Assembly (NCBI GenBank): GCA_009379825.1
Contig: WHTA01000062.1
Location: 1-33,473 of the forward strand
DNA length: 33,473 nt
Origin: Streptosporangiales bacterium
GTDB taxonomy: Bacteria > Actinomycetota > Actinomycetes > Streptosporangiales > WHST01
Direction: 5' to 3'
The position numbers and the translations under genes are program-made. Positions 4,793-19,256 of the stretch are shown one piece after another (within the stretch, counting starts at the first letter, position 1; each line of letters begins with the position of its first letter). A model generated the notes under the pieces. That model did not search any database. It saw nothing but the letters and a program-made list of their open reading frames with translations, and was not told where the DNA came from.

Positions 4793-5540
4793 TGGTCCCG
4801 CTCCCACGGTGTCGACGGGAGCGGGAGTCAGCGGAGATGCGCAACTGACGGCGTACGCACGGGACAGGGATCCTGTCCTGCGCGATGAGCTCGTCCTCAA
4901 GTACCGGCCGTTGGTGCTGCGGGTCGCAGCACGTGTCGGCGGCCGGCTGCCTGATCACGTGGAGCGCGCCGACCTGGTCTCGGTGGGCATGCTCGGGTTG
5001 TTCGAGGCGCTCGAGCGGTTCGACCCGGACCGTGGCAGGCCGTTCGAGAGGTACGCGATCGCCCGCATCAAGGGCGCGATCCTCGACGAGCTGCGTGCCT
5101 GCGGTGGCATGCCCCGGTCGTACTGGGTCCGGCGTCGCACGGTGAGCAAGGTCGCGGCGAGCCTGGGGCACACCCTCGGCCGGCAACCTGCTCCCGGTGA
5201 AGTGTCGGCGGCCAGCGGCATGTCGGTGTCGGAGGTGCGGGAAGCGTCCTTGGGGCCGGTCGCGGACCCGGCCGTGCTCGACGGCCTCAGCTGTGACGAC
5301 GCGGCACGACTCGGTCTGCCCGCACCAGGCGACCCGGAACAGAGCGCGGTCGACGCCGACGCACGGCACCGGCTGCTGGTTGCCGTGGATCGCCTCCCCG
5401 ACCGGATCCACCGGGTCATCGACTGGCACTACCGCGAGGAGCTGACGTTCGCGCAGATCGCCGAGCGCCTCGGGGTGACCGAGACCCGAGTGAGCCAACT
5501 GCACGCCGCCGCCCTCCGCGAACTACGCCGACGCCTATGA
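4767..5540 (+). CDS. whiG: RNA polymerase sigma factor, FliA/WhiG family
   Basis: A 257-residue sigma factor of the FliA/WhiG (sigma28) class. WhiG commits aerial hyphae to sporulation in Streptomyces, whereas FliA drives flagellar genes. Region 2 is seen in LVLKYRPLVLRVAARV and RADLVSVGMLGLFEALERFD, with RPFERYAIARIKGAILDELR. Region 3 is PRSYWVRRRTVSKV, a WhiG-like motif. Region 4 ends with FAQIAERLGVTETRVSQLH and AALRELRRRL. The neighbourhood (dprA, xerC before; M23 peptidase and rpsB after) argues for whiG rather than a flagellar sigma, and no flagellar genes are present. ATG 4767 lies inside xerC, so the two are coupled. Streptomyces WhiG is about 20 residues longer. Confidence 0.9.
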   Translation: MSKRIPEPDGPAPTVSTGAGVSGDAQLTAYARDRDPVLRDELVLKYRPLVLRVAARVGGRLPDHVERADLVSVGMLGLFEALERFDPDRGRPFERYAIARIKGAILDELRACGGMPRSYWVRRRTVSKVAASLGHTLGRQPAPGEVSAASGMSVSEVREASLGPVADPAVLDGLSCDDAARLGLPAPGDPEQSAVDADARHRLLVAVDRLPDRIHRVIDWHYREELTFAQIAERLGVTETRVSQLHAAALRELRRRL

Positions 5541-5620
5541 CCGTGCCTTGCTCACACCCAATCCCACTGCCCCAGGTGCCGGGACATAACCACGGCTCCC
5601 AGCGGCACGCCCACACACCG

Positions 5621-6122
5621 CAGGAACGGTCCGGTCGACCACCACACCCACCGGTGCTGCGCCGGTCGCACTTGCCCGCGCACCCAGGAAGCTGCGCAGG
5701 CCTCCGCACCGTTCGTCTCCGTGCTGCGTGGGTCCCGGGAAGTTGCGCTGGTCTCCGTGTCGCTCGTCTCTGTGTTGCGCGGGTCCGGGAGATTGCGCTG
5801 GTTCCCGTGCCGGTCGTCTCCGTGCCGCGGGTCCGGAAGTTGCGCTGCTCTCCGTGTTGCGCGGGTCCCCCGGGAGTTGCGCTGGCTTCCGTGTCGGTTG
5901 TCTCCGTGCTGCGGTCTGGGAAGTTGCGCTGGCTTCCGTGTCGGTTGTCTCCGTGCTGCGGTCTGGGAAGTTGCGCTGGTTCCCGTGGCGGTGGTCTCGT
6001 GCCGTGGGGCCGGGAAGTTGCGCTGGTCTCCGTGTCGGTTGTCTCCGTGCTGCGGTCTGGGAAGTTGCGCTGCTCGGTGTCGGTCGTCTCCATGCACCAT
6101 CCAGGAAAGGTCCGGGTCGACC
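5621..6122. repeat. Degenerate ~47-bp minisatellite with GGAAGTTGCGCTGG core
   Basis: The word GGAAGTTGCG, or a one- or two-base variant, starts at 5687, 5738, 5788, 5835, 5873, 5919, 5966, 6013 and 6060. Spacing is 51, 50, 47, 38, 46, 47, 47 and 47 bp. The rest of each unit reads roughly CTGGCTTCCGTGTCGGTTGT then CTCCGTGCTGCGGTCTG. A related pair of 20-21-bp sequences, CAGGAACGGTCCGGTCGACC at 5621 and a near copy at 6102-6122, brackets the array. 47 is not a multiple of 3, and the same unit is read in different frames along the open frames that cross it, so it is unlikely to encode a protein. 5541-5620 holds nothing recognisable. Confidence 0.92.
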
Positions 6123-6286
6123 GGCCCGGGGTGCCTAACAGCTGCGTCTCCGCATGCTGCAGAAGTGGCGGCGCCGTTCGCACGTGAGCCACCACCATTT
6201 CTCCCCGATCTGGCCGGTGTCGGTGAGGCCGAACATCGCGAGCCTGGTGGCGTTGTCCCGTTCGGTTGGGCTGCGCGGGCCAGGCA

Positions 6287-7208
6287 CTACAGATACCGCG
6301 CGGCAGCGTGGATGGTTCCCGCATCCACTTCGGCGCGGAGCTCGTCGAGAGTGCATCGGTCGGCCAGCGGCTCGGTGAGCTTCGCGGCGGCGACCTCGCT
6401 ACCCCGGTCTTCGCCGTGACAGGCGTGCCGCCCGGGGGAAGGTCCGGGCCGGCCACGAAGCGGTGTAGCTCGTCCAGCCAGACGATGAGGCGCTGCGGCA
6501 ACCGCCGGTGCCGGGTCAGCGCGTTGACGGCGTCGCCGTCGCCACGATCGGGTGCCAGTACGGAGAAGCCGGCCAGCTCGGTGCGTGCGGTCTCGTACCG
6601 TAGGCGGGTCTTCCCCACACGAGTCCCCGACGATCAGGAGGAGTCCGCCGTCGGTGCGGGCGGCCTTCAGCCATTCGCGGACGTCGCCCTCCATCTCGCG
6701 GGCGACGAAGTGCGGCAGCGTGGTCGACTCCGTGCCGGCGTAGTCACGGTGCGGCCGCGCCGGGTGGACGCCGAGGGCCAACACGCGCGCCGACCCGTCA
6801 CCGATCACCGGGAGACGGGTACGTCGCCCGGCAGGTCGCGTCCCGACGTCGCCCGGCCCGCCGGCGGCTGCACCGCTGCCCGTAGCCGACGAGCTACGAG
6901 CTTGCCGCCGCCTCGCCACCACCGCTGCGGAGATCGCGAGGCCCACGATGCCGACGAACATGCTGACGACACCCGCGACGGCGGCCTGGGTCCGCCGCCG
7001 CCGAGGCGCTGTACGAGACGTCGCGTCCGGCCTCGCTCAGCGCAGCGGCTGGCGGAAGTACGCCACGAGCGCGAGCAGGGTGCCGAGTACTGCGGCGTTG
7101 GTCCCGGAACCGAGGATCGCCCAGCCCACGCGGGGCCCTGCGAGAAGGGCGGGTGCGCAGCGGGCGGTCTGACATCTGGCGTCCCTCGTCACCTGTTACA
7201 TTGCTCAT
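6287..7208 (-). pseudogene. Decayed membrane-linked P-loop NTPase
   Basis: Read on the minus strand, fragments in alternating frames line up as one protein. It starts MSNVTGDEGRQMSDRP (ATG 7208), then a first hydrophobic segment (VGWAILGSGTNAAVLGTLLA), LSEAGRDVSYSASAA, and a second (SMFVGIVGLAISAAVVARRR). Next come ALGVHPARPHRDYAG and LPHFVAREMEGDVREWLK, then LLLIVGDS broken just before VGKTR (Walker A), LPQRLIVWLDELHRFVAGP (Walker B-like), and DELRAEVDAGTIHAAARYL before a stop. Frame changes fall near 7150, 7050, 6990, 6622 and 6415. The layout (two membrane segments, then a GDSxxGKTR P-loop) resembles actinobacterial NTPases of unknown function, from memory only. At least five disruptions make a functional product very unlikely. 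The stretch 6135-6290 holds one more coding-like fragment (RLAMFGLTDTGQIGEKWWW) that I cannot place. Confidence 0.75.
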
Positions 7209-7456: not shown

Positions 7457-8623
7457 ATGAGGACTGCGCGGGCGCTGGCTGTCGCCGCGTGTCTCGTGCT
7501 TGCAGTGGGATGCACGCAGACGTCCGACGATCCGAGCGATCGGTCGACCAAGCAAGCACAGACGGCATCACCGAAGCAGACCGGGCCGATCTCGGTGAAG
7601 ATCACTCCGGCGGACGGCACCCAGGAGGTGGCGCCGAACAAGCCAGTGCAAGTGACCGTCAGCGGCGGCGAGGTCGTGTCGGTGGAGGTCAAGGGCAAGG
7701 GCAACGTCACCGGCGAGACCTTGTCCGACGGCACCAGCTGGAAGAGCGCGGGCACCCTGCACCCGGCGTCGTCGTACCGGGTCAAGGTGCGGGCGAAGAA
7801 CGAGGGCGGTGACAAGTCGACCACCGCGAAGTTCACCACCATGCCGGTGTCGAACACGGTGAAGGCGTCCGTCGCTCCGCTGGACGGGTCCGTCGTCGGG
7901 ATCGGTCAGCCGGTCGCCGTCTACCTGTCCCAGCCGGTGAAGAACCGGGCAGCCGTCGAGCGTGCGCTCGAGGTGAAGACGGACAAGAAGATCGAAGGAT
8001 CCTGGCGCTGGTTCAGCGACGACGAGCTGCACTTCCGTCCGAAGGAGTACTGGCCCGCGCACACGAAGGTCGTACTCAACGCCGACCTGGCCGGCGTGAA
8101 GGCCGCCCCCGGCCTGTGGGGTGTCGAAGACCGCAAGATCAAGTTCACCATCGGCAAGAAGCAGACCAGCGTGGTGAACACGAAGAAGCACACGATGGCC
8201 ATCAAGGTCAACGACAAGGTCGTCAAGCGGATGCCGGTGTCCACGGGCAGCGCGAAGTACCCGACGAAGAGCGGCATCCACGTGGTGATGGGCAAGGCGG
8301 ACCCGTACGAGATGGACTCCACCACCGCCGGCATCACCGGCAGTGACGCCTACCTGACGACGGTCCGCTACGCGGTACGCATCTCGAACTCGGGTGAGTT
8401 CGTGCACGCCGCCCCGTGGTCGGCGAGCAGTCAGGGGAGACGGAACGTCTCGCACGGTTGCGTGAACGTCACCACCGAACGAGCGCTGTGGTTCTACAAC
8501 TTCTCCCAGGTCGGCGACATCGTCGACGTGGTGGGCACGGATGTGCAGATCGAGCCAACGAACGGCTTCGGCGACTGGAACCTGTCCTGGGAGGAATGGC
8601 AGAAGGGCTCCGCGCTCGACTGA
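7457..8623 (+). CDS. Lipoprotein L,D-transpeptidase (YkuD) with Ig-like domains
   Basis: A 388-residue exported enzyme expected to form 3-3 crosslinks in peptidoglycan. A signal peptide ends in the lipobox LAVGC (Cys19), so it should be anchored outside the membrane. Residues about 44-130 and 135-232 look like the two Ig-like domains of mycobacterial LdtMt2-type enzymes. The YkuD domain follows from about 238, with His317 (FVHAAPWS) and the catalytic motif NVSHGCVNV (His333, Cys335). The C-terminal extension FGDWNLSWEEWQKGSALD fits this class. ATG 7457 has a GGGGGA 5-8 nt upstream. It stands alone: the pseudogene upstream is divergent and the next gene convergent. Coding sequence is markedly lysine-rich for this window. 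Confidence 0.95.
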   Translation: MRTARALAVAACLVLAVGCTQTSDDPSDRSTKQAQTASPKQTGPISVKITPADGTQEVAPNKPVQVTVSGGEVVSVEVKGKGNVTGETLSDGTSWKSAGTLHPASSYRVKVRAKNEGGDKSTTAKFTTMPVSNTVKASVAPLDGSVVGIGQPVAVYLSQPVKNRAAVERALEVKTDKKIEGSWRWFSDDELHFRPKEYWPAHTKVVLNADLAGVKAAPGLWGVEDRKIKFTIGKKQTSVVNTKKHTMAIKVNDKVVKRMPVSTGSAKYPTKSGIHVVMGKADPYEMDSTTAGITGSDAYLTTVRYAVRISNSGEFVHAAPWSASSQGRRNVSHGCVNVTTERALWFYNFSQVGDIVDVVGTDVQIEPTNGFGDWNLSWEEWQKGSALD

Positions 8624-8632
8624 CGCCAGCCG

Positions 8633-8658
8633 CCCGACGCATTCGATTCGGTGTCGGG
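8633..8658 (+). terminator. Possible hairpin after the L,D-transpeptidase gene
   Basis: CCCGAC at 8633-8638 pairs with GTCGGG at 8653-8658 around a 14-nt loop, 10 nt after the stop codon. There is no T tract. The remaining 160 bp up to the convergent sigma factor gene hold only two loose copies of TTCGATTCGGTG (8642 and 8696). Confidence 0.35.
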
Positions 8659-8818
8659 TGTGGGCTGCTCGCGGCATGGTTCCAGGTCACCCGGTTCGAT
8701 TCGGTGCTGAGCGTGGGCGGCTCACCGCACGTCCGGTCACCCGCCGGCGAAGCGCGGCGACCGGCGGTTGCTTCGGTAACCGCAGGACGCTGCCGGAGTC
8801 GGCGACCATGCCGGCCGC

Positions 8819-10045
8819 TCAGCCGAGCTCGGTGCGATGGCGGCGTAGGTAGTCGACCTCCGCGGCGTTCTCCGTGCGAGCCATCGCGGCGTCGTACGCG
8901 GCTGCCGCCTCGTCGGCGCGCCCCAGCCGGCGGAGCAGGTCGGCGCGGATGGCGTAGTACAGGTAGTAGTCGTCGAGGTCCAGGTCGTCGACGAGGGCTA
9001 GAGCCGTTTCCGCACCGGCTACCTCGGCCACCGCCACCGCGCGGTTCAGTGCGGCCACCGGGGTCGGCGCGATGGCCAGCAGTTGGTCGTAGAGCAGCAG
9101 GATCTGCCGCCAGTCGGTGTCCGAAGCGGTCGCCGCGTCGCTGTGTACGGCGTTGATGGCCGCCTGGATCTGGTACGGCCCCGGCTGGTTGCGTCGCAGA
9201 CACGCTCTGACGATGTCCTGTCCCTCGGCAACGAGCGTCGCGTCCCACCGGCGGCGGTCCTGGTCCGGCAGGCGCACCAGGGAGCCGTCGGCCGCCGTGC
9301 GGGTCGGGCGGCGCGCCTCGGTGAGCAGCATCAGGGCGAGCAGTCCCTGGGCTTCGGCCTCGTCCGGCATCAACTCGGCTACCAGCCGGCCCAGCCGCAG
9401 CGCCTCCGTGCACAGCTCGGCCCGTACGAGCTGGTCACCCGACGTCGCCGCGTAGCCCTCGTTGAAGATCAGGTAGATCACCGCGAGCACGGCGCGTACC
9501 CGGTCAGGTAGGTCCGCGTCGTACGGCACCCGGTACGGGATCTTGGCGTCGCGGATCTTGCCCTTGGCGCGCACGATGCACTGCGCCATCGTCGACTCGC
9601 TCACCAGGAACGCGCGTGCGATCTCGGCCGTGGTGAGGCCACCGAGCAGGCGCAGCGTCAGTGCGACCTGGGCGCGGGCCGCGAGCGCGGGATGGCAGCA
9701 GGTGAAGATGAGGCGCAGTCGGTCGTCACGCACGACGCCCTCCTCGATGGGCTCCTGCTGTGCATGCAGTAGCGCAGCCTGCGCATGGCGGTCCTCGCGG
9801 GTAGCTTCCCTGCGGAGCTTGTCGATCGCCTTGTTGCGTGCGGTCGTGATGATCCACCCGGCCGGGCTCGGCGGCAGACCCTCCGCCGGCCAGCGCTGTG
9901 TGGCGACGGTGAACGCTTCTTGCACGGCGTCCTCGGCGACATCGACGTCGCCGAAGACGCCGGTGAGCACCGAGACCGCTCGACCGTACTCGCCACGGAA
10001 GACCCGATCGATCTCGGTGGCGGGCAGTGGCTGCCCTTCCGGCAT
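8819..10045 (-). CDS. ECF42-type RNA polymerase sigma factor with C-terminal helical repeats
   Basis: A 408-residue sigma factor, twice the size of a classical ECF. The N-terminal 180 residues hold sigma2 ([38 protein letters not shown]) and sigma4 ([37 protein letters not shown]). A long helical C-terminus follows, with [15 protein letters not shown] and [17 protein letters not shown], typical of the SnoaL-free, TPR-like extension of group ECF42. ECF42 genes are known to sit beside DGPF/YCII proteins, as here. The ATG at 10045 shares one base with the YCII stop (TGATG), so the two are coupled; the longer open frame upstream lies inside the YCII gene. No anti-sigma factor is present, in line with ECF42. 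Confidence 0.93.
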
Positions 10046-10401
10046 CAGCCGCCGGTCTCGTCGTGGAACGGCCAGACCTCGATCGGGAGCAGCTCGATCG
10101 CCTCCGCGTACTTCCGCCCCCACGCAAGCGCGGCGTCGAGATCGGGCACGTCGATGATGGTGAAGCCGCCGATGTGCTCCTTGCCCTCCAGGTACGGACC
10201 GTCGGTGACGAGGACGCCGCCGTCCTTCTGGCGGAGCACCGTCGCGGTGCTGGGTGCGTGCAGACCGCCGGCGAACACCCAGACCCCCGCGTCCTGCATC
10301 TCCTGCTGGAGTGCGCCGAGCTTCGCCATGATCGGATCGAGGATCTCTGGTGGCGGCGGATCGCCCTCGGGCTGGTACATGCTCAGTAGGTAGCGGGTCA
10401 T
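10045..10401 (-). CDS. DGPF/YCII-domain protein, partner of the ECF42 sigma factor
   Basis: A 118-residue single-domain protein of the YCII-related (DGPF) family, with the start [13 protein letters not shown] and the hallmark [20 protein letters not shown] (here DGPY instead of DGPF). Family members are ferredoxin-like dimers whose biochemical role is unknown; those next to ECF42 sigma factors are reported to be among the sigma factor's targets. A strong GAGGAGGA lies 6 nt upstream of the ATG. A candidate ECF42 promoter lies about 50-80 nt upstream (10452-10479). The gene is therefore probably first in a two-gene, self-activated unit. Confidence 0.93.
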
Positions 10402-10451
10402 CTCATCCTCCTCGGTGTGCGCCGGCCCCGTGCCGGTCGTTCACCCTCCAC

Positions 10452-10479
10452 ACGAACGGCGGGGCGACCGGATCGACAC
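10452..10479 (-). promoter_or_regulatory. Candidate ECF42 promoter (TGTCGA - 18 nt - CGTG)
   Basis: On the minus strand TGTCGA (10479-10474) is followed after 18 nt by CGTG (10455-10452), and the YCII ATG lies 50 nt further on. As I recall, ECF42 promoters in Streptomyces venezuelae have TGTCGA at -35 and a CGA/TC-type -10; the -35 match is exact and the -10 is close. Placement before the partner gene supports autoregulation. A T7 run at 10501-10507 just beyond it (A-rich on the transcribed side) is unusual in this GC-rich sequence and may act as an upstream element. Confidence 0.55.
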
Positions 10480-10542
10480 CGACGCGACCAGGTGAGGGTA
10501 TTTTTTTCTGCCGGCCGGGAGCAACGCCACGGCCGGTGCGCG

Positions 10543-11245
10543 CTAGCCGAGGAGCTGCGCCAGCGCGCCGGCACCGTAGCGGATCAGCATTACGCCGACG
10601 ATGCCGACGATCCACTGCGCCGTCGCGCGGGAGCTCGCGACGACCTTCTCGTACCATCGCTGCAGCCGGCCGGATATCCGGTCACCGAGCAGCCCGTGGG
10701 CGAGCAGCAGGATTAGCGGCGGCAGGCTCATCACGCCGACGTAGCCGGCCAGCAACGGTAATCCGACGGTCACCGGCACGCCGTGGGCGGTCAGCGCGCC
10801 GATGGCCGCGAGGTACGGAGCCGCCGTCGCGAACTCGACTACGGTCACGACGGCACCGAGCGCGACGAGGGCGGCGAGACCGATGCGGCTGGACGCAGGT
10901 AGCCGGCTCTTCCGGCGCGAGGCGCGGGTCGGGTCCCGTTTCTCCAGGTGCCCGTCGACGAGGCTCCAGATGAGCATGGATGCTTCCGCGAGTGCGATCA
11001 GCGCACGGCTGACCGGGTGCGCGACAGCGGCCTCGAGCTGCTCGGTCAGGGCGTCCAGACCGAGCAGGAGGATCGCGCCGATGGCGAAATACGTCGTCGC
11101 CACGGTCGTCATGTAGGTCAGGACCTGCACCGCGCTGCGGCGTCCGTTGCCGGCGATCAGGAGATAGATGGTGACTGCGATGACCGACCGGGTTGAGGCT
11201 GTCGAGCGCCGCGCAGACGAGCAGCGTGCCCAGAACGGTGGTCAC
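10543..11245 (-). pseudogene. GAP family (Sap-like) membrane protein, frameshifted near its N-terminus
   Basis: The first frame (GTG 11245) gives VLGTLLVCAALDSLNPV, the typical GAP-family N-terminus. After an apparent extra base around 11181-11192 the other frame gives the expected continuation (VIAVTIYLLIAGNG, then VQVLTYMTTVATTYFAIGAIL) and runs intact to 10543. About six hydrophobic segments are visible, with EKRDPTRASRRKSRLP as a cytoplasmic loop. The family includes the mycobacterial Sap protein linked to lipid export; function here is unknown. A product starting at GTG 11130 would lack the first membrane segment. It may be a real mutation or a one-base sequence error. It follows the small membrane protein gene on the same strand. 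Confidence 0.65.
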
Positions 11246-11277
11246 CGGTTCACCTCATGCCCGCTGGGCTTCCGGTG

Positions 11278-11487
11278 TCATCGATCGTCCGTGCGCCGGG
11301 CGATGACGGCCCGGTAGACGACGGTGATGAGCGCGATGGTGCCGGCGATCGTCGCCGCGGTGGTGGCCGCGTTGACGGCCCAGTTGGCGTCGGGCGGCAG
11401 GAGCTGCTGCTTGCCGAGGTTCGCGCCGACGACGATGACGACGTACACCCACCACGGTGCCCACTTCTGCTGCGGCTGTTCGCTCAT
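11278..11487 (-). CDS. Small two-helix membrane protein, unknown
   Basis: 69 residues starting MSEQPQQKWAPWW. Two hydrophobic helices are visible (WVYVVIVVGANLG and ATIAGTIALITVVYRAVIA), with a basic tail ARRTDDR. The ATG at 11487 gives a natural N-terminus; longer open frames upstream are arginine-rich shadows. It ends 32 nt before the GAP-family start, so the two are probably one transcript. It is divergent from the histidine kinase (start 11598), and the 110-bp gap should hold both promoters, though I see no clear boxes. I do not recognise a family. Confidence 0.7.
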   Translation of the reverse strand: MSEQPQQKWAPWWVYVVIVVGANLGKQQLLPPDANWAVNAATTAATIAGTIALITVVYRAVIARRTDDR

Positions 11488-11597
11488 GTCGTCGATGTTC
11501 GCGTGGCGCGGGGGCCGTGGCCATCGGGAGCTCGGACGAGGGCGTGTCCGCCGTTCGGATGACCCGATGGCGTGCGCGGGTGTGCTCTCATGGTCCC

Positions 11598-12746
11598 GTG
11601 CGTGTCGGCTCCGTCGTCTCACCGACCCGCCGCGACGTATGGGTCGCGGGCGGCTGTCTCGTGCTCGGTGTGACGCTCTACCTGACCGGGTTCAACACCT
11701 TCTCTGGCGCCGACCCGGACATTGCGCTCGGGTGGCGGATCGCGGTGCTCGGGTTGGCTTGCGTAGGACAGCTGTGGCGGTCGACCAGGCCGCTGATGGC
11801 GCTCGGGATCGGTCTGGCCGCGGTGGCGATCGACGCATGGCATGGCCTGACGTTGCCGGTGCTGATCGTGCTCGCCGACCTGCTCTACACGGCAACTCTC
11901 TACGCGGGACGCCGCGCGAGCAGGTTGCTGGTCGGTGCGGTGGGTGCCGCCGTCGTGGTGCTTGCGGTGTCGACCGCGCTGCTCGAGCACGACTGGCGGT
12001 TCGCGATGGTGATGCTGCTACAGGTCGGGCTCGTGCTGCTGGTGCCGGTCTGGTGGGCGCGGAACGTGCGCCAGCAGCGGGAGCTGGCGGAGGTGCAGCG
12101 GGAGCGTGCCGATCAGGTGGCACGGATCGCCGAGCTGGACCGTCGGGCCGCGATCGCGGAAGAACGTTCGCGGATGGCGCGCGACCTGCATGACGTCGTC
12201 GCGGGCCAGCTGTCGGCGATCGCGATCCAGTCGGAAGCGTTGTTGTCCGGTGCAGCGGGCGGCGACACGCAGACGGTGTTGCGGTCGGTGCGGGAGAACA
12301 GCGTCGCCGCTCTCGCCGAGATGCGTGCCATGATCGACGTGCTCCGCGACGGCGACGACGAGGCGCGGACGGCGCCGCCGCGGCTGCGCGAGCTGGATGG
12401 TCTGGTGAGCTCGGCAAGCGCAAGTGGGGTGCCTGTCGTGGTCGACGCGTCCTCGCCGGAGCAGCTGCCCACACCGGTCGATCTGGCGGCCTATCGCATC
12501 GTGCAGGAGGCGCTGACGAACGTGACGAAGCACGCCCCGGGCGCCGCGACCACCGTGCGGGTCCACGGCGCCGCCCCGTTGGTCGTCGAGGTACACAACG
12601 AGTTTGACGGTGCCGCCGGCCCGCCGGGCACGGGCGTGGTGAGCATGCACGAGCGCGCGACCGCGGTCGGCGGCACGCTGACCGCAGGCCCGGACGAGGA
12701 CGGGTGGCAGGTGCGCGCCGAGTTGCCGGTGGGGGAGGCGTCGTGA
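11598..12746 (+). CDS. Two-component sensor histidine kinase (NarL/DesK type, HisKA_3)
   Basis: A 382-residue membrane kinase. Residues 10-155 hold five or so hydrophobic helices (WVAGGCLVLGVTLYLTGF, LMALGIGLAAVAIDAWHG, LLVGAVGAAVVVLAVSTAL, FAMVMLLQVGLVLLVPVWW) with almost no extracellular domain. A short coiled coil (RQQRELAEVQRERADQVARI) leads to the dimerisation box ERSRMARDLHDVVAGQLSAI, with His198 as phosphoacceptor. The ATPase domain has the N-box AYRIVQEALTNVTKHA and the glycine-rich GTGVVSMHERATAVGG. GTG 11598 is the likeliest start. Its stop overlaps the regulator's GTG (GTGA at 12743-12746). The partner regulator is frameshifted, so the kinase may have no functional partner. Confidence 0.93.
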   Translation: MRVGSVVSPTRRDVWVAGGCLVLGVTLYLTGFNTFSGADPDIALGWRIAVLGLACVGQLWRSTRPLMALGIGLAAVAIDAWHGLTLPVLIVLADLLYTATLYAGRRASRLLVGAVGAAVVVLAVSTALLEHDWRFAMVMLLQVGLVLLVPVWWARNVRQQRELAEVQRERADQVARIAELDRRAAIAEERSRMARDLHDVVAGQLSAIAIQSEALLSGAAGGDTQTVLRSVRENSVAALAEMRAMIDVLRDGDDEARTAPPRLRELDGLVSSASASGVPVVVDASSPEQLPTPVDLAAYRIVQEALTNVTKHAPGAATTVRVHGAAPLVVEVHNEFDGAAGPPGTGVVSMHERATAVGGTLTAGPDEDGWQVRAELPVGEAS

Positions 12747-13377
12747 TCAAGGTCCTGCTCGCGGACGACCACGCCGCCATCCGGGCCGGCCTGGCCATGA
12801 TCCTGAACGCTGCGGGACGACATCACCGTTGCCGGCGAGGCGGCGGACGGTGCGACCGCGGTGCGGATGGCGCGAGCCCTGGCCGTCGACGTCGTGCTGA
12901 TGGACGTCCGGATCGCCAGGAGTGGACGGCATCGAGGCGACCCGTCAACTGGTCGCCGCCGGCGACTGCGACGTGCTGGTGCTGACGACCTTCGACCTGG
13001 ACGAGTACGTCTACGCGTCGCTGCGGGCCGGCGCCGCGGGGTTCCTGCTGAAGTCGGTCGAGGGGTCGAGGCTGGTCGAGGCGGTGCGGCTGGTGGCGGC
13101 GGATGAAGGAGTGCTCGCCCCCGCCGTGACCCGGCGCCTGTTCGCAGAGTTCGCCGCGTCCGTGCCGGCGGAACGGCCACCCGGCGCTGACGAGCTGACC
13201 CAGCGCGAGCGCGAGGTGCTGGCCTGCCTCGGCGAGGGACTGTCGAACCAGCAGATCGCAGCCCGCCTGTACATCGGCGAGACGACGGTGAAGACCCACG
13301 TCTCCCGGGTCCTGTCGAAGCTACAGCTGCGCTCCCGCGTCCAGGCCGTAATCGTGGCGCGCGAGCTCCAGGCCTGA
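12743..13377 (+). pseudogene. LuxR/NarL-type response regulator broken by two frameshifts
   Basis: Three frames together give a complete 210-residue regulator. Frame one (GTG 12743): VLLADDHAAIRAGLAMILNAA. Frame two from about 12813: DDITVAGEAADGATAVRMAR and DVVLMDVR (phospho-Asp). Frame three from about 12921: VDGIEATRQL, VLVLTTFDLDEYVYASLRAG, GFLLKSVEG and the helix-turn-helix LTQREREVLACLGEGLSNQQ then IAARLYIGETTVKTHVSRVL. The total length (635 nt) is 3n+2, which fits two single-base insertions, in GCGGGACG (about 12811) and CCAGGAGTGG (about 12916). All key residues are otherwise kept, so the damage is recent, or is sequence error. Coupled to the kinase by a 4-nt overlap. Confidence 0.85.
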
Positions 13378-13434
13378 CGCAGGGGTAGCCGCCCCCAGGG
13401 CGATTCCCGACCGAGCGGTAGGACTGCCTCCCTC

Positions 13435-13460
13435 CTGGCAGCCTGCCTCCTGGCTGCCAG
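13435..13460 (+). terminator. Possible hairpin after the response regulator
   Basis: CTGGCAG (13435-13441) pairs with CTGCCAG (13454-13460) around a 12-nt loop, 58 nt after the regulator's stop. No T tract is present. Confidence 0.35.
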
Positions 13461-13465
13461 CCGGA

Positions 13466-13665
13466 GTGACGCGTGACCCAGCAGTACGGGCCGACGACGC
13501 GATACCCGGCGACCTGGCCGTGCGGTTGGCACAGACCTGGCTGCGACCGAGCTGCATCGCCGACGTGCCCGTGTCACCGAGGCGGCCGAGGGCAGGGCCG
13601 GAATTACCGCGGCCTGGCGTGAGTGGGTGAGGGCAGGCGCGCAGTGGCGGCTGGGAGGACTAGGT
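13466..13665 (+). other. Possible remnant of a small gene
   Basis: Two plus-strand frames look mildly protein-like and would join by one frame change near 13535: AIPGDLAVRLAQTWL and then ATELHRRRARVTEAAEG, GITAAWREWVRAGAQWRLGG. No family is recognised and the evidence is only amino-acid composition. Otherwise this gap between the regulator and the minus-strand small gene holds nothing I can name. Confidence 0.2.
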
Positions 13666-13842
13666 GGCGTGTGGATGGTCATGGCGTGGGTGTTCTCGGT
13701 GGACGAGGGTGACGATCTCGTCGATGGCGGCGTCCAGGCTGAGGTGTCTGCGGTCGTAGAGCTCCAGCACGGCCCGGATGCCGCCGATGGTGCCCTCGGA
13801 CAGCGGACCGCCGCGGCGGTGTCCGCGCGTGCCGGCGGTCAC
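13660..13842 (-). CDS. Small hypothetical protein coupled to the M23 gene
   Basis: 60 residues from a GTG that overlaps the M23 stop (GTGA at 13842-13839), a classic translational-coupling layout. The body is amphipathic and helical (SEGTIGGIRAVLELYDRRHL, SLDAAIDEIVTLVHREHP) and ends in a histidine-rich tail (RHDHPHAT). I do not recognise a family. Codon and amino-acid pattern look real compared with shadow frames. Dependence on M23 translation suggests an equimolar or accessory product. Confidence 0.6.
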   Translation of the reverse strand: MTAGTRGHRRGGPLSEGTIGGIRAVLELYDRRHLSLDAAIDEIVTLVHREHPRHDHPHAT

Positions 13843-15777: not shown

Positions 15778-16770
15778 ATGGCCGTCGTCACCATGCGGAA
15801 CCTGCTCGAGTCTGGGGTGCATTTCGGGCACCAGACTCGGCGCTGGGACCCCAAGATGAAGCGCTACATCTTCACCGAGCGCAACGGCATCTACATCATC
15901 GACCTGCAGCAGACGCTGACGTACATCGACGCTGCCTACACGTTCGTCAAGAGCACCGTCGCGCGCGGCGGCAACGTGCTCTTCATCGGGACGAAGAAGC
16001 AGGCGCAGGAGGCCGTCGAGGAGCAGGCCAAGCGCGTCGGCATGCCGTACGTGACGCACCGCTGGCTGGGCGGCATGCTCACCAACTTCCAGACGGTGCA
16101 CAAGCGGCTGCAGCGGCTGAAGGAGCTGGAGGAGATCGGCGCTGCCGGTGCGGAGAACAGCGTCCGCACCAAGAAGGAGCGGCTGATCCTCGACCGCGAG
16201 CGCAGCAAGCTGGAGCGGACGCTCGGCGGCATCCGCGACATGCAGCGGCTGCCGGACGCGGTGTGGGTGGTCGACACCAAGAAGGAGCACATCGCCGTCG
16301 ACGAGGCCAAGAAGCTGGGTATCCCGGTAGTGGCCATCCTCGACACGAACTGCGACCCGGACCTGGTCGACTACCCGATCCCCGGCAACGACGACGCCAT
16401 CAGGGCCGTCGGCCTGCTGACCAGGGTGGTCGCCGACGCGGTGGCCGAGGGCCTGATGGCCCGCTCGGCCGCGAGCGCGGGCGAGGAGCCGGCCGGCGAC
16501 GTCGCCGTCGACGAGCCGCTCGCCGAGTGGGAGCGCGAGCTGCTGCAGAGCGGCCAGCAGGAGACCGCCGACGTGGCCGCCGCGCCCGAGGCGGCCACCA
16601 CCGAGGCGGCCACCACCGAGGCGGCCACCACCGAGGCGGCCACCACCGAGGCGGCCACCACCGAGGCGGCCACCACCGAGGCCGAGGCTCAGCCGGCGCC
16701 GGCGGCGGAGGAAGCGGCCCCGGCCGCCGACGCGGGCAGTGCGCCCGAGGCGCCCGCCGACCAGGCCTGA
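15778..16770 (+). CDS. rpsB: 30S ribosomal protein S2 with long acidic C-terminal tail
   Basis: 330 residues. The first about 245 are a standard bacterial S2: [104 protein letters not shown]2 joins the small subunit late and is needed for S1 or start-site function. The tail is an acidic Ala/Thr/Glu stretch containing six perfect EAATT-type pentads and then an Ala/Pro/Glu end. Actinobacterial S2 proteins often have acidic tails, but this exact pentad array is unusual. ATG 15778 gives [10 protein letters not shown]. tsf follows after 104 nt. Confidence 0.97.
16591..16680 (+). repeat. Six perfect 15-bp tandem repeats inside rpsB
   Basis: GCGGCCACCACCGAG is repeated six times without a mismatch, encoding (AATTE)6 in frame. 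The 15-bp unit keeps the frame at any copy number, so length can change without breaking S2. Confidence 0.97.
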
Positions 16771-18344: not shown

Positions 18345-19256
18345 ATGACCGGACACGCACACGGGCACGGCGTCGCCGAGCACGCGGGCGGGCGGCACCG
18401 GTGGCGGTTGGCGGTCGCATTCGGCCTGGTTCTCTCGTTCTTCGGCGTGGAGCTGGTCGCCGGCCTGCTCTCCGGGTCGCTCGCGCTGCTCACCGACGCG
18501 GGGCACCTGGCGTCGGACGTCGTGACGCTGGCGGCGGCGTTGCTTGCCACCCGGATCGCGGTGCGGCCGGACACCACCGGGCGCCGCACCTACGGCTCGT
18601 ACCGGGCGGAGGTGTTCGCGTCCGGCCTGGCCGTGCTGATGATGGTCGGCGTCGCGGTGTACGTGGTCGTCGAGGCGTTGCGCAGGTTCGGCGAGCCGGT
18701 GCAGGTGGCGACCACGCCGATGCTCGTGGTCGGCGGCATCGGCCTGGGGGTCAACGTGGTCGCGCTCATGCTGCTGCACGGCGGTGCCGGCGAGAGCCTG
18801 AACGTACGCGGCGCCTACCTCGAGGTGGTGGCGGACACCGCCGGGTCGGTGGGCGTGCTGGTCGCCGGCGTGCTCGTGCTGCTGACCGGGCAGGGGTTCT
18901 GGGACACCGTGGTCGCGTTCGCCATCGGTGTGTTCGTCGTGGTGCGTGCGGTCGGCCTCGGCCGCCAGGTCGTGGCCGTCCTCGGCCAGCACGCGCCCGC
19001 CGGCGTCGACCCGGACACGGTCGCCGGGGAGCTGGCCGGCGTCGACGGGGTGCAGGACGTGCACGACCTGCACCTGTGGACGCTGACCTCCGGCATGCAC
19101 GTGGCGACCGCGCACCTGGTGACTACGACGCACGCGGACGCGCACGCCGTGCTCGACCGGGCCGGCGACATCCTGCGGGAGCGGCACGGCATCGCGCACG
19201 CCACGCTGCAGGTCGAGCCGGCGGACCACCGGGCGTGCGACGAGCTGACCTGGTGA
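18345..19256 (+). CDS. Cation diffusion facilitator metal exporter (CzcD-like)
   Basis: 303 residues with six membrane helices. CDF proteins exchange Zn, Cd or Co for protons across the membrane. A short His-rich N-terminus (GHAHGHGVAEH) precedes TM1. TM2 has the metal site TDAGHLASD (His54, Asp58). In TM5 the matching motif is E160-VVA-D164, where most Zn members have His-xxx-Asp. The C-terminal cytoplasmic domain has VDGVQDVHDLHLWTLTSGMH, a typical metal-sensing ferredoxin-like fold. GGAAGG at 18332-18337 precedes ATG 18345. It is 106 nt downstream of the sensor gene, probably the same transcript, derepressed by metal. Confidence 0.93.
   Translation: MTGHAHGHGVAEHAGGRHRWRLAVAFGLVLSFFGVELVAGLLSGSLALLTDAGHLASDVVTLAAALLATRIAVRPDTTGRRTYGSYRAEVFASGLAVLMMVGVAVYVVVEALRRFGEPVQVATTPMLVVGGIGLGVNVVALMLLHGGAGESLNVRGAYLEVVADTAGSVGVLVAGVLVLLTGQGFWDTVVAFAIGVFVVVRAVGLGRQVVAVLGQHAPAGVDPDTVAGELAGVDGVQDVHDLHLWTLTSGMHVATAHLVTTTHADAHAVLDRAGDILRERHGIAHATLQVEPADHRACDELTW

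Follow-up and report, generated by a model that had tools for sequence, protein, structure and literature searches.

An array of nine tandem 47-bp units lies between two actinobacterial genes at positions 5687–6096 of the window (the whole 33,473-nucleotide stretch that was analysed, contig C62 of a 6.15-Mb draft genome). We consider it very probable that this array is an ageing, non-coding minisatellite that is neutral and without selected function, which was among the candidate roles named in the original prediction and is the one that our analysis supports. The features on which the argument draws are as follows.

4806–5540, + strand: FliA/WhiG-like sigma factor, upstream gene, start codon not settled (family match below the NCBIfam WhiG cut-off)
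5621–5640, + strand: left copy of the bracketing repeat, CAGGAACGGTCCGGTCGACC (alignment of the array flanks)
5687–6096, + strand: 47-bp minisatellite of nine units (TRF, 14-mer matches, unit profile)
5738–5871, + strand: first unit block, of full, TTCCC-type and short units (unit alignment)
5919–6096, + strand: second unit block, of full, TTCCC-type, full and short units (unit alignment)
6102–6122, + strand: right copy of the bracketing repeat, CAGGAAAGGTCCGGGTCGACC (alignment of the array flanks)
6418–6823, − strand: frameshifted, truncated gene remnant with a relative on contig C32 of congener G001 (match to that contig)
7457–8623, + strand: L,D-transpeptidase with a YkuD domain, downstream gene (family match, synteny with G001)

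Structure of the array

Run on the window, TRF reported a period of 47 bp with 8.8 copies across 5687–6095 (score 312, 74% matches). The 14-mer GGAAGTTGCGCTGG matches the array with no more than two mismatches at 5687, 5738, 5788, 5835, 5872, 5919, 5966, 6013 and 6060, bearing out the nine cores originally described. The distances between these units are 51, 50, 47, 37, 47, 47, 47 and 47 bp, so that the predicted array stands while its range of spacings, given as 38–51 bp, becomes 37–51 bp. When up to three mismatches were allowed, the 14-mer had 13 matches in the whole window (4.4 expected), a number reached by none of 100 shuffles, and a unit-profile search of the window together with a 2.07-Mb sample of the genome returned the same nine units and no convincing tenth.

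The relationships among the units are those of a sequence copied head to tail, with a unit length within the roughly 10–100 bp of minisatellites and with the near-identical units, variant units and block duplication that slippage or unequal exchange leaves behind. The consensus unit, GGAAGTTGCGCTGGTCTCCGTGTCGGTCGTCTCCGTGCTGCGGTCCG, contains two copies of TCTCCGTG, and for this reason the 47-bp unit itself looks assembled from shorter parts. The units at 5872, 5919 and 6013 are 94–98% identical to one another, indicating that the recent copying proposed in the original prediction applies to some of the units. A TTCCC variant is common to the units at 5788 and 5966, and the core ends in GCTGC at 5835 and 6060, both of them short units. 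In two places, 5738–5871 and 5919–6096, the units follow one another as full, TTCCC-type, (full), short, and this recurrence of a similar order in two blocks therefore points to block duplication. The + strand of the array is poor in A (5% A and 27% T, compared with 13% A in the window), which is the composition of one unit copied nine times.

Conservation and confinement of the core

The property of the array that most invites a functional reading is the conservation of its core. As a candidate site of a regulator or nucleoid protein, the core could, through its repetition, raise occupancy between the two genes. In the aligned units (taken, for the conservation and permutation tests, without the short unit at 5835) GGAAGTTGCGCTGG is the most conserved stretch of 14 columns, differing from the consensus at 5 of 111 sites as compared with 34 of 253 in the spacer, roughly threefold fewer, and having a mean pairwise identity of 0.91 as compared with 0.78 for the remainder. 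If the core is taken as fixed, permutation gives values of 0.02–0.035. However, because the core was picked for being conserved, the fair test is one that allows any best stretch of 14 columns, and in column permutations of this kind the observed level was reached in 35% of trials with all aligned units and in 50% once near-identical units were removed. Moreover, a second motif, GTCTCCGTGC, in columns 29–38, is equally conserved (0.92). The conservation of the core thus neither requires selection nor excludes it, and the suggestion that the core stands out from a drifting spacer in a way that calls for selection was not confirmed.

Exact copies of GGAAGTTGCGCTGG occur in this array only, across the 6.15-Mb genome, as might be expected of a dedicated binding tract. 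The original prediction had asked whether the core is dispersed; we found it confined to the array, with weak matches elsewhere. There are five one-mismatch matches in the rest of the genome, compared with 11 for a reversed control pattern, and the best of the other matches of the 601-bp stretch containing the array in its own genome, at E = 0.006, is to a 15-bp repeat in apparent coding sequence. The multi-locus homologous units that are the hallmark of MIRU-like interspersed repeats were accordingly not found in this genome. A candidate dispersed family was set aside, as its matches, terminal on contigs C94 and C71, come from a 15-bp repeat whose translation looks like a proline/glycine-rich coding stretch. 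Extended by TCCGTG, the core is absent from 100 relatives, including two congeners; a short match in congener G002 was also rejected, since it sits in what reads as coding sequence.

The core has no palindromic symmetry, and a search for inverted repeats at the array found none. The array sits on the 3′ side of the sigma-factor gene, at a distance of well over 1 kb from the transpeptidase gene. Taken together with the permutation results, the lack of dispersed cores and the missing extended core in relatives, these observations make a protein-binding array, one of the roles originally suggested, very improbable, even if it fares best among the alternatives. The narrower proposal that the core is the putative site of a lineage-specific DNA-binding protein, with the array separating the sigma-factor and L,D-transpeptidase genes in a regulatory or insulating role, is slightly less probable still.

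The larger gap, the bracketing repeat and tests for RNA and coding

The upstream gene had been named whiG. It does encode a FliA/WhiG-like sigma factor, but a divergent one that falls under the NCBIfam cut-offs for both WhiG (179 bits, cut-off 343) and FliA_WhiG (170 bits, cut-off 190), and a scan of the genome contigs with the long open reading frame around it (several patterns upstream of the gene) returned distant sigma factors only. The gene order dprA–xerC–sigma factor–L,D-transpeptidase is common to congener G001, yet the gap between the last two genes is 1.9 kb here and 240 bp in G001. Part of this gap is occupied by the gene remnant at 6418–6823, whose relative on contig C32 of G001 is an open frame of 602 codons; here the match switches frame and ends early. 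It is more likely, if not proven, that the gap grew here than that it shrank in G001. In most of the genomes examined from more distant genera, dprA–xerC is directly followed by an M23-peptidase gene, with no match to the sigma factor or the transpeptidase between them, and because of this direct adjacency those genera cannot show the direction of the change. Further downstream, about 5.2 kb (8624–13838) separates the transpeptidase gene from that of the M23 peptidase, a pair that lies close together in G001, and the translations suggest that this interval may contain an ECF-like sigma factor and two-component genes.

A related sequence of about 20 bp had been noted on both sides of the array. 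It stands as an imperfect direct repeat with 19 of 21 columns identical, although its significance depends on the scoring: 2 of 5000 randomisations reached its score under strict scoring, while 101 of 2000 shuffled flank pairs scored as well under lax gapped scoring, where it is marginal. We regard this bracketing repeat as probably real. Its likeness to the array unit is no greater than that of many shuffles. Conceivably, the two copies bound the remnant of a small element, mobile or inserted, some 480 bp long, inside which the minisatellite expanded, an idea favored by the strict-scoring result and by a gap that as a whole exceeds that of G001. Nevertheless, neither a second genomic copy of the bracketed stretch nor an inverted repeat, terminal ones included, was found, and so there is no hint of a mobile element; with an element gene absent as well, and the repeat marginal under lax scoring, we consider such a remnant very unlikely.

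Given that the array begins approximately 150 bp 3′ of the sigma-factor gene and on the same strand, it might be imagined to specify a structured or stable RNA, either derived from the 3′ end of the sigma-factor mRNA or transcribed independently. This role, also on the original list, is hardly credible: folding of 5560–6140 was no more stable than that of shuffles (z of 0.51 on the + strand and 0.03 on the − strand), an Rfam search of the array gave no match, and no promoter-like or terminator-like site was found at the array. Just as hard to credit is a translated coding repeat, because, even though the frames at 5537–6187 (+) and 5416–6618 (−) are open across the entire array and the ATG of the former overlaps the sigma-factor stop codon (ATGA) in a way that could couple translation, open frames are expected at 70% GC, GC by codon position is flat in the array frames (0.71/0.63/0.71, compared with 0.78/0.51/0.84 in the sigma-factor gene), the units occupy all three reading phases and differ in length by non-multiples of three, and a protein-family search with these frames found no match, all in keeping with the earlier observation that no reading frame is preserved.

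Probable origin of the array and apparent turnover of repeats between species

We therefore return to a neutral minisatellite, for which we infer the following course. The DNA separating the sigma-factor and transpeptidase genes would have lengthened to 1.9 kb in this lineage, taking in a gene that has since decayed. In this unconstrained DNA a short G- and T-rich sequence may have been tandemly duplicated by replication slippage, unequal recombination or both, with some duplications including blocks of several units, and the copies would then have drifted apart through point mutations and small insertions and deletions. At most, the array would be a length-polymorphic (VNTR) locus. Three observations speak against neutrality, namely the threefold deficit of differences in the core, the A-poor + strand and the bracketing repeat, the last of which simple slippage does not account for.

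Among known systems, the array resembles bacterial minisatellites and VNTR loci in consisting of non-coding tandem copies of tens of bases with variant units and signs of block duplication, but its units are unusually worn (74% matches by TRF) and it is known here from one genome. The MIRU minisatellites of Mycobacterium tuberculosis are likewise mostly intergenic (PMC3635867), and the array can be likened to these actinobacterial repeats in kind; unlike MIRUs, which are interspersed over many loci, its unit occurs at a single locus.

Tandem arrays are nothing unusual in this genome. Using TRF to survey 2.07 Mb of it, or about one third, for arrays with a period of 20 or more, a length of 100 bp or more and no fewer than 2.7 copies, we identified 24 arrays, nine of which, including the present one, have a period not divisible by three; the other arrays share nothing with the present one beyond matches of 11–12 bases. 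A second minisatellite, with periods of 35 and 72 bp and up to 94% matches, occupies 1–310 of the window, where the contig begins; worn copies of it apparently reach to about 700, and the assembly probably breaks inside this array. On contig C81 (L075), a 35-bp minisatellite of nine copies (18930–19253) starts directly behind the apparent stop codon of the upstream gene, while at 16586–16682 of the window a perfect in-frame 15-bp repeat (6.5 copies) gives rise to a run of ATTEA close to the C-terminal end of ribosomal protein S2. In addition, 356 different 20-mers, GGTTGTCCCGGCGGTCGTAG for example, occur in at least four separate pieces of the genome sample.

Congener G001 carries a repeat of its own, the ~30-bp GACAGTGCTGGCTGCCTCCGGCGGTCTT, with 14 sites at up to three mismatches (none for a reversed control). 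It flanks the L,D-transpeptidase gene on both sides (L152 on G001:C21, 6095–6122 and 7588–7675) and is found on ten further contigs. Like the array, this repeat forms short tandem runs next to these genes, but it differs in sequence, is spread over eleven G001 contigs and is absent from the genome studied here.

The array thus provides an example of a GC-rich actinobacterial intergenic region gaining a minisatellite in a gap that holds a dying gene, and by itself it has little significance. Next to these genes, however, a congener has a dispersed repeat of another sequence, so that repeats in intergenic DNA seem to be gained and lost from one species to the next, and this contrast between congeners would be a better subject of study than the array itself.
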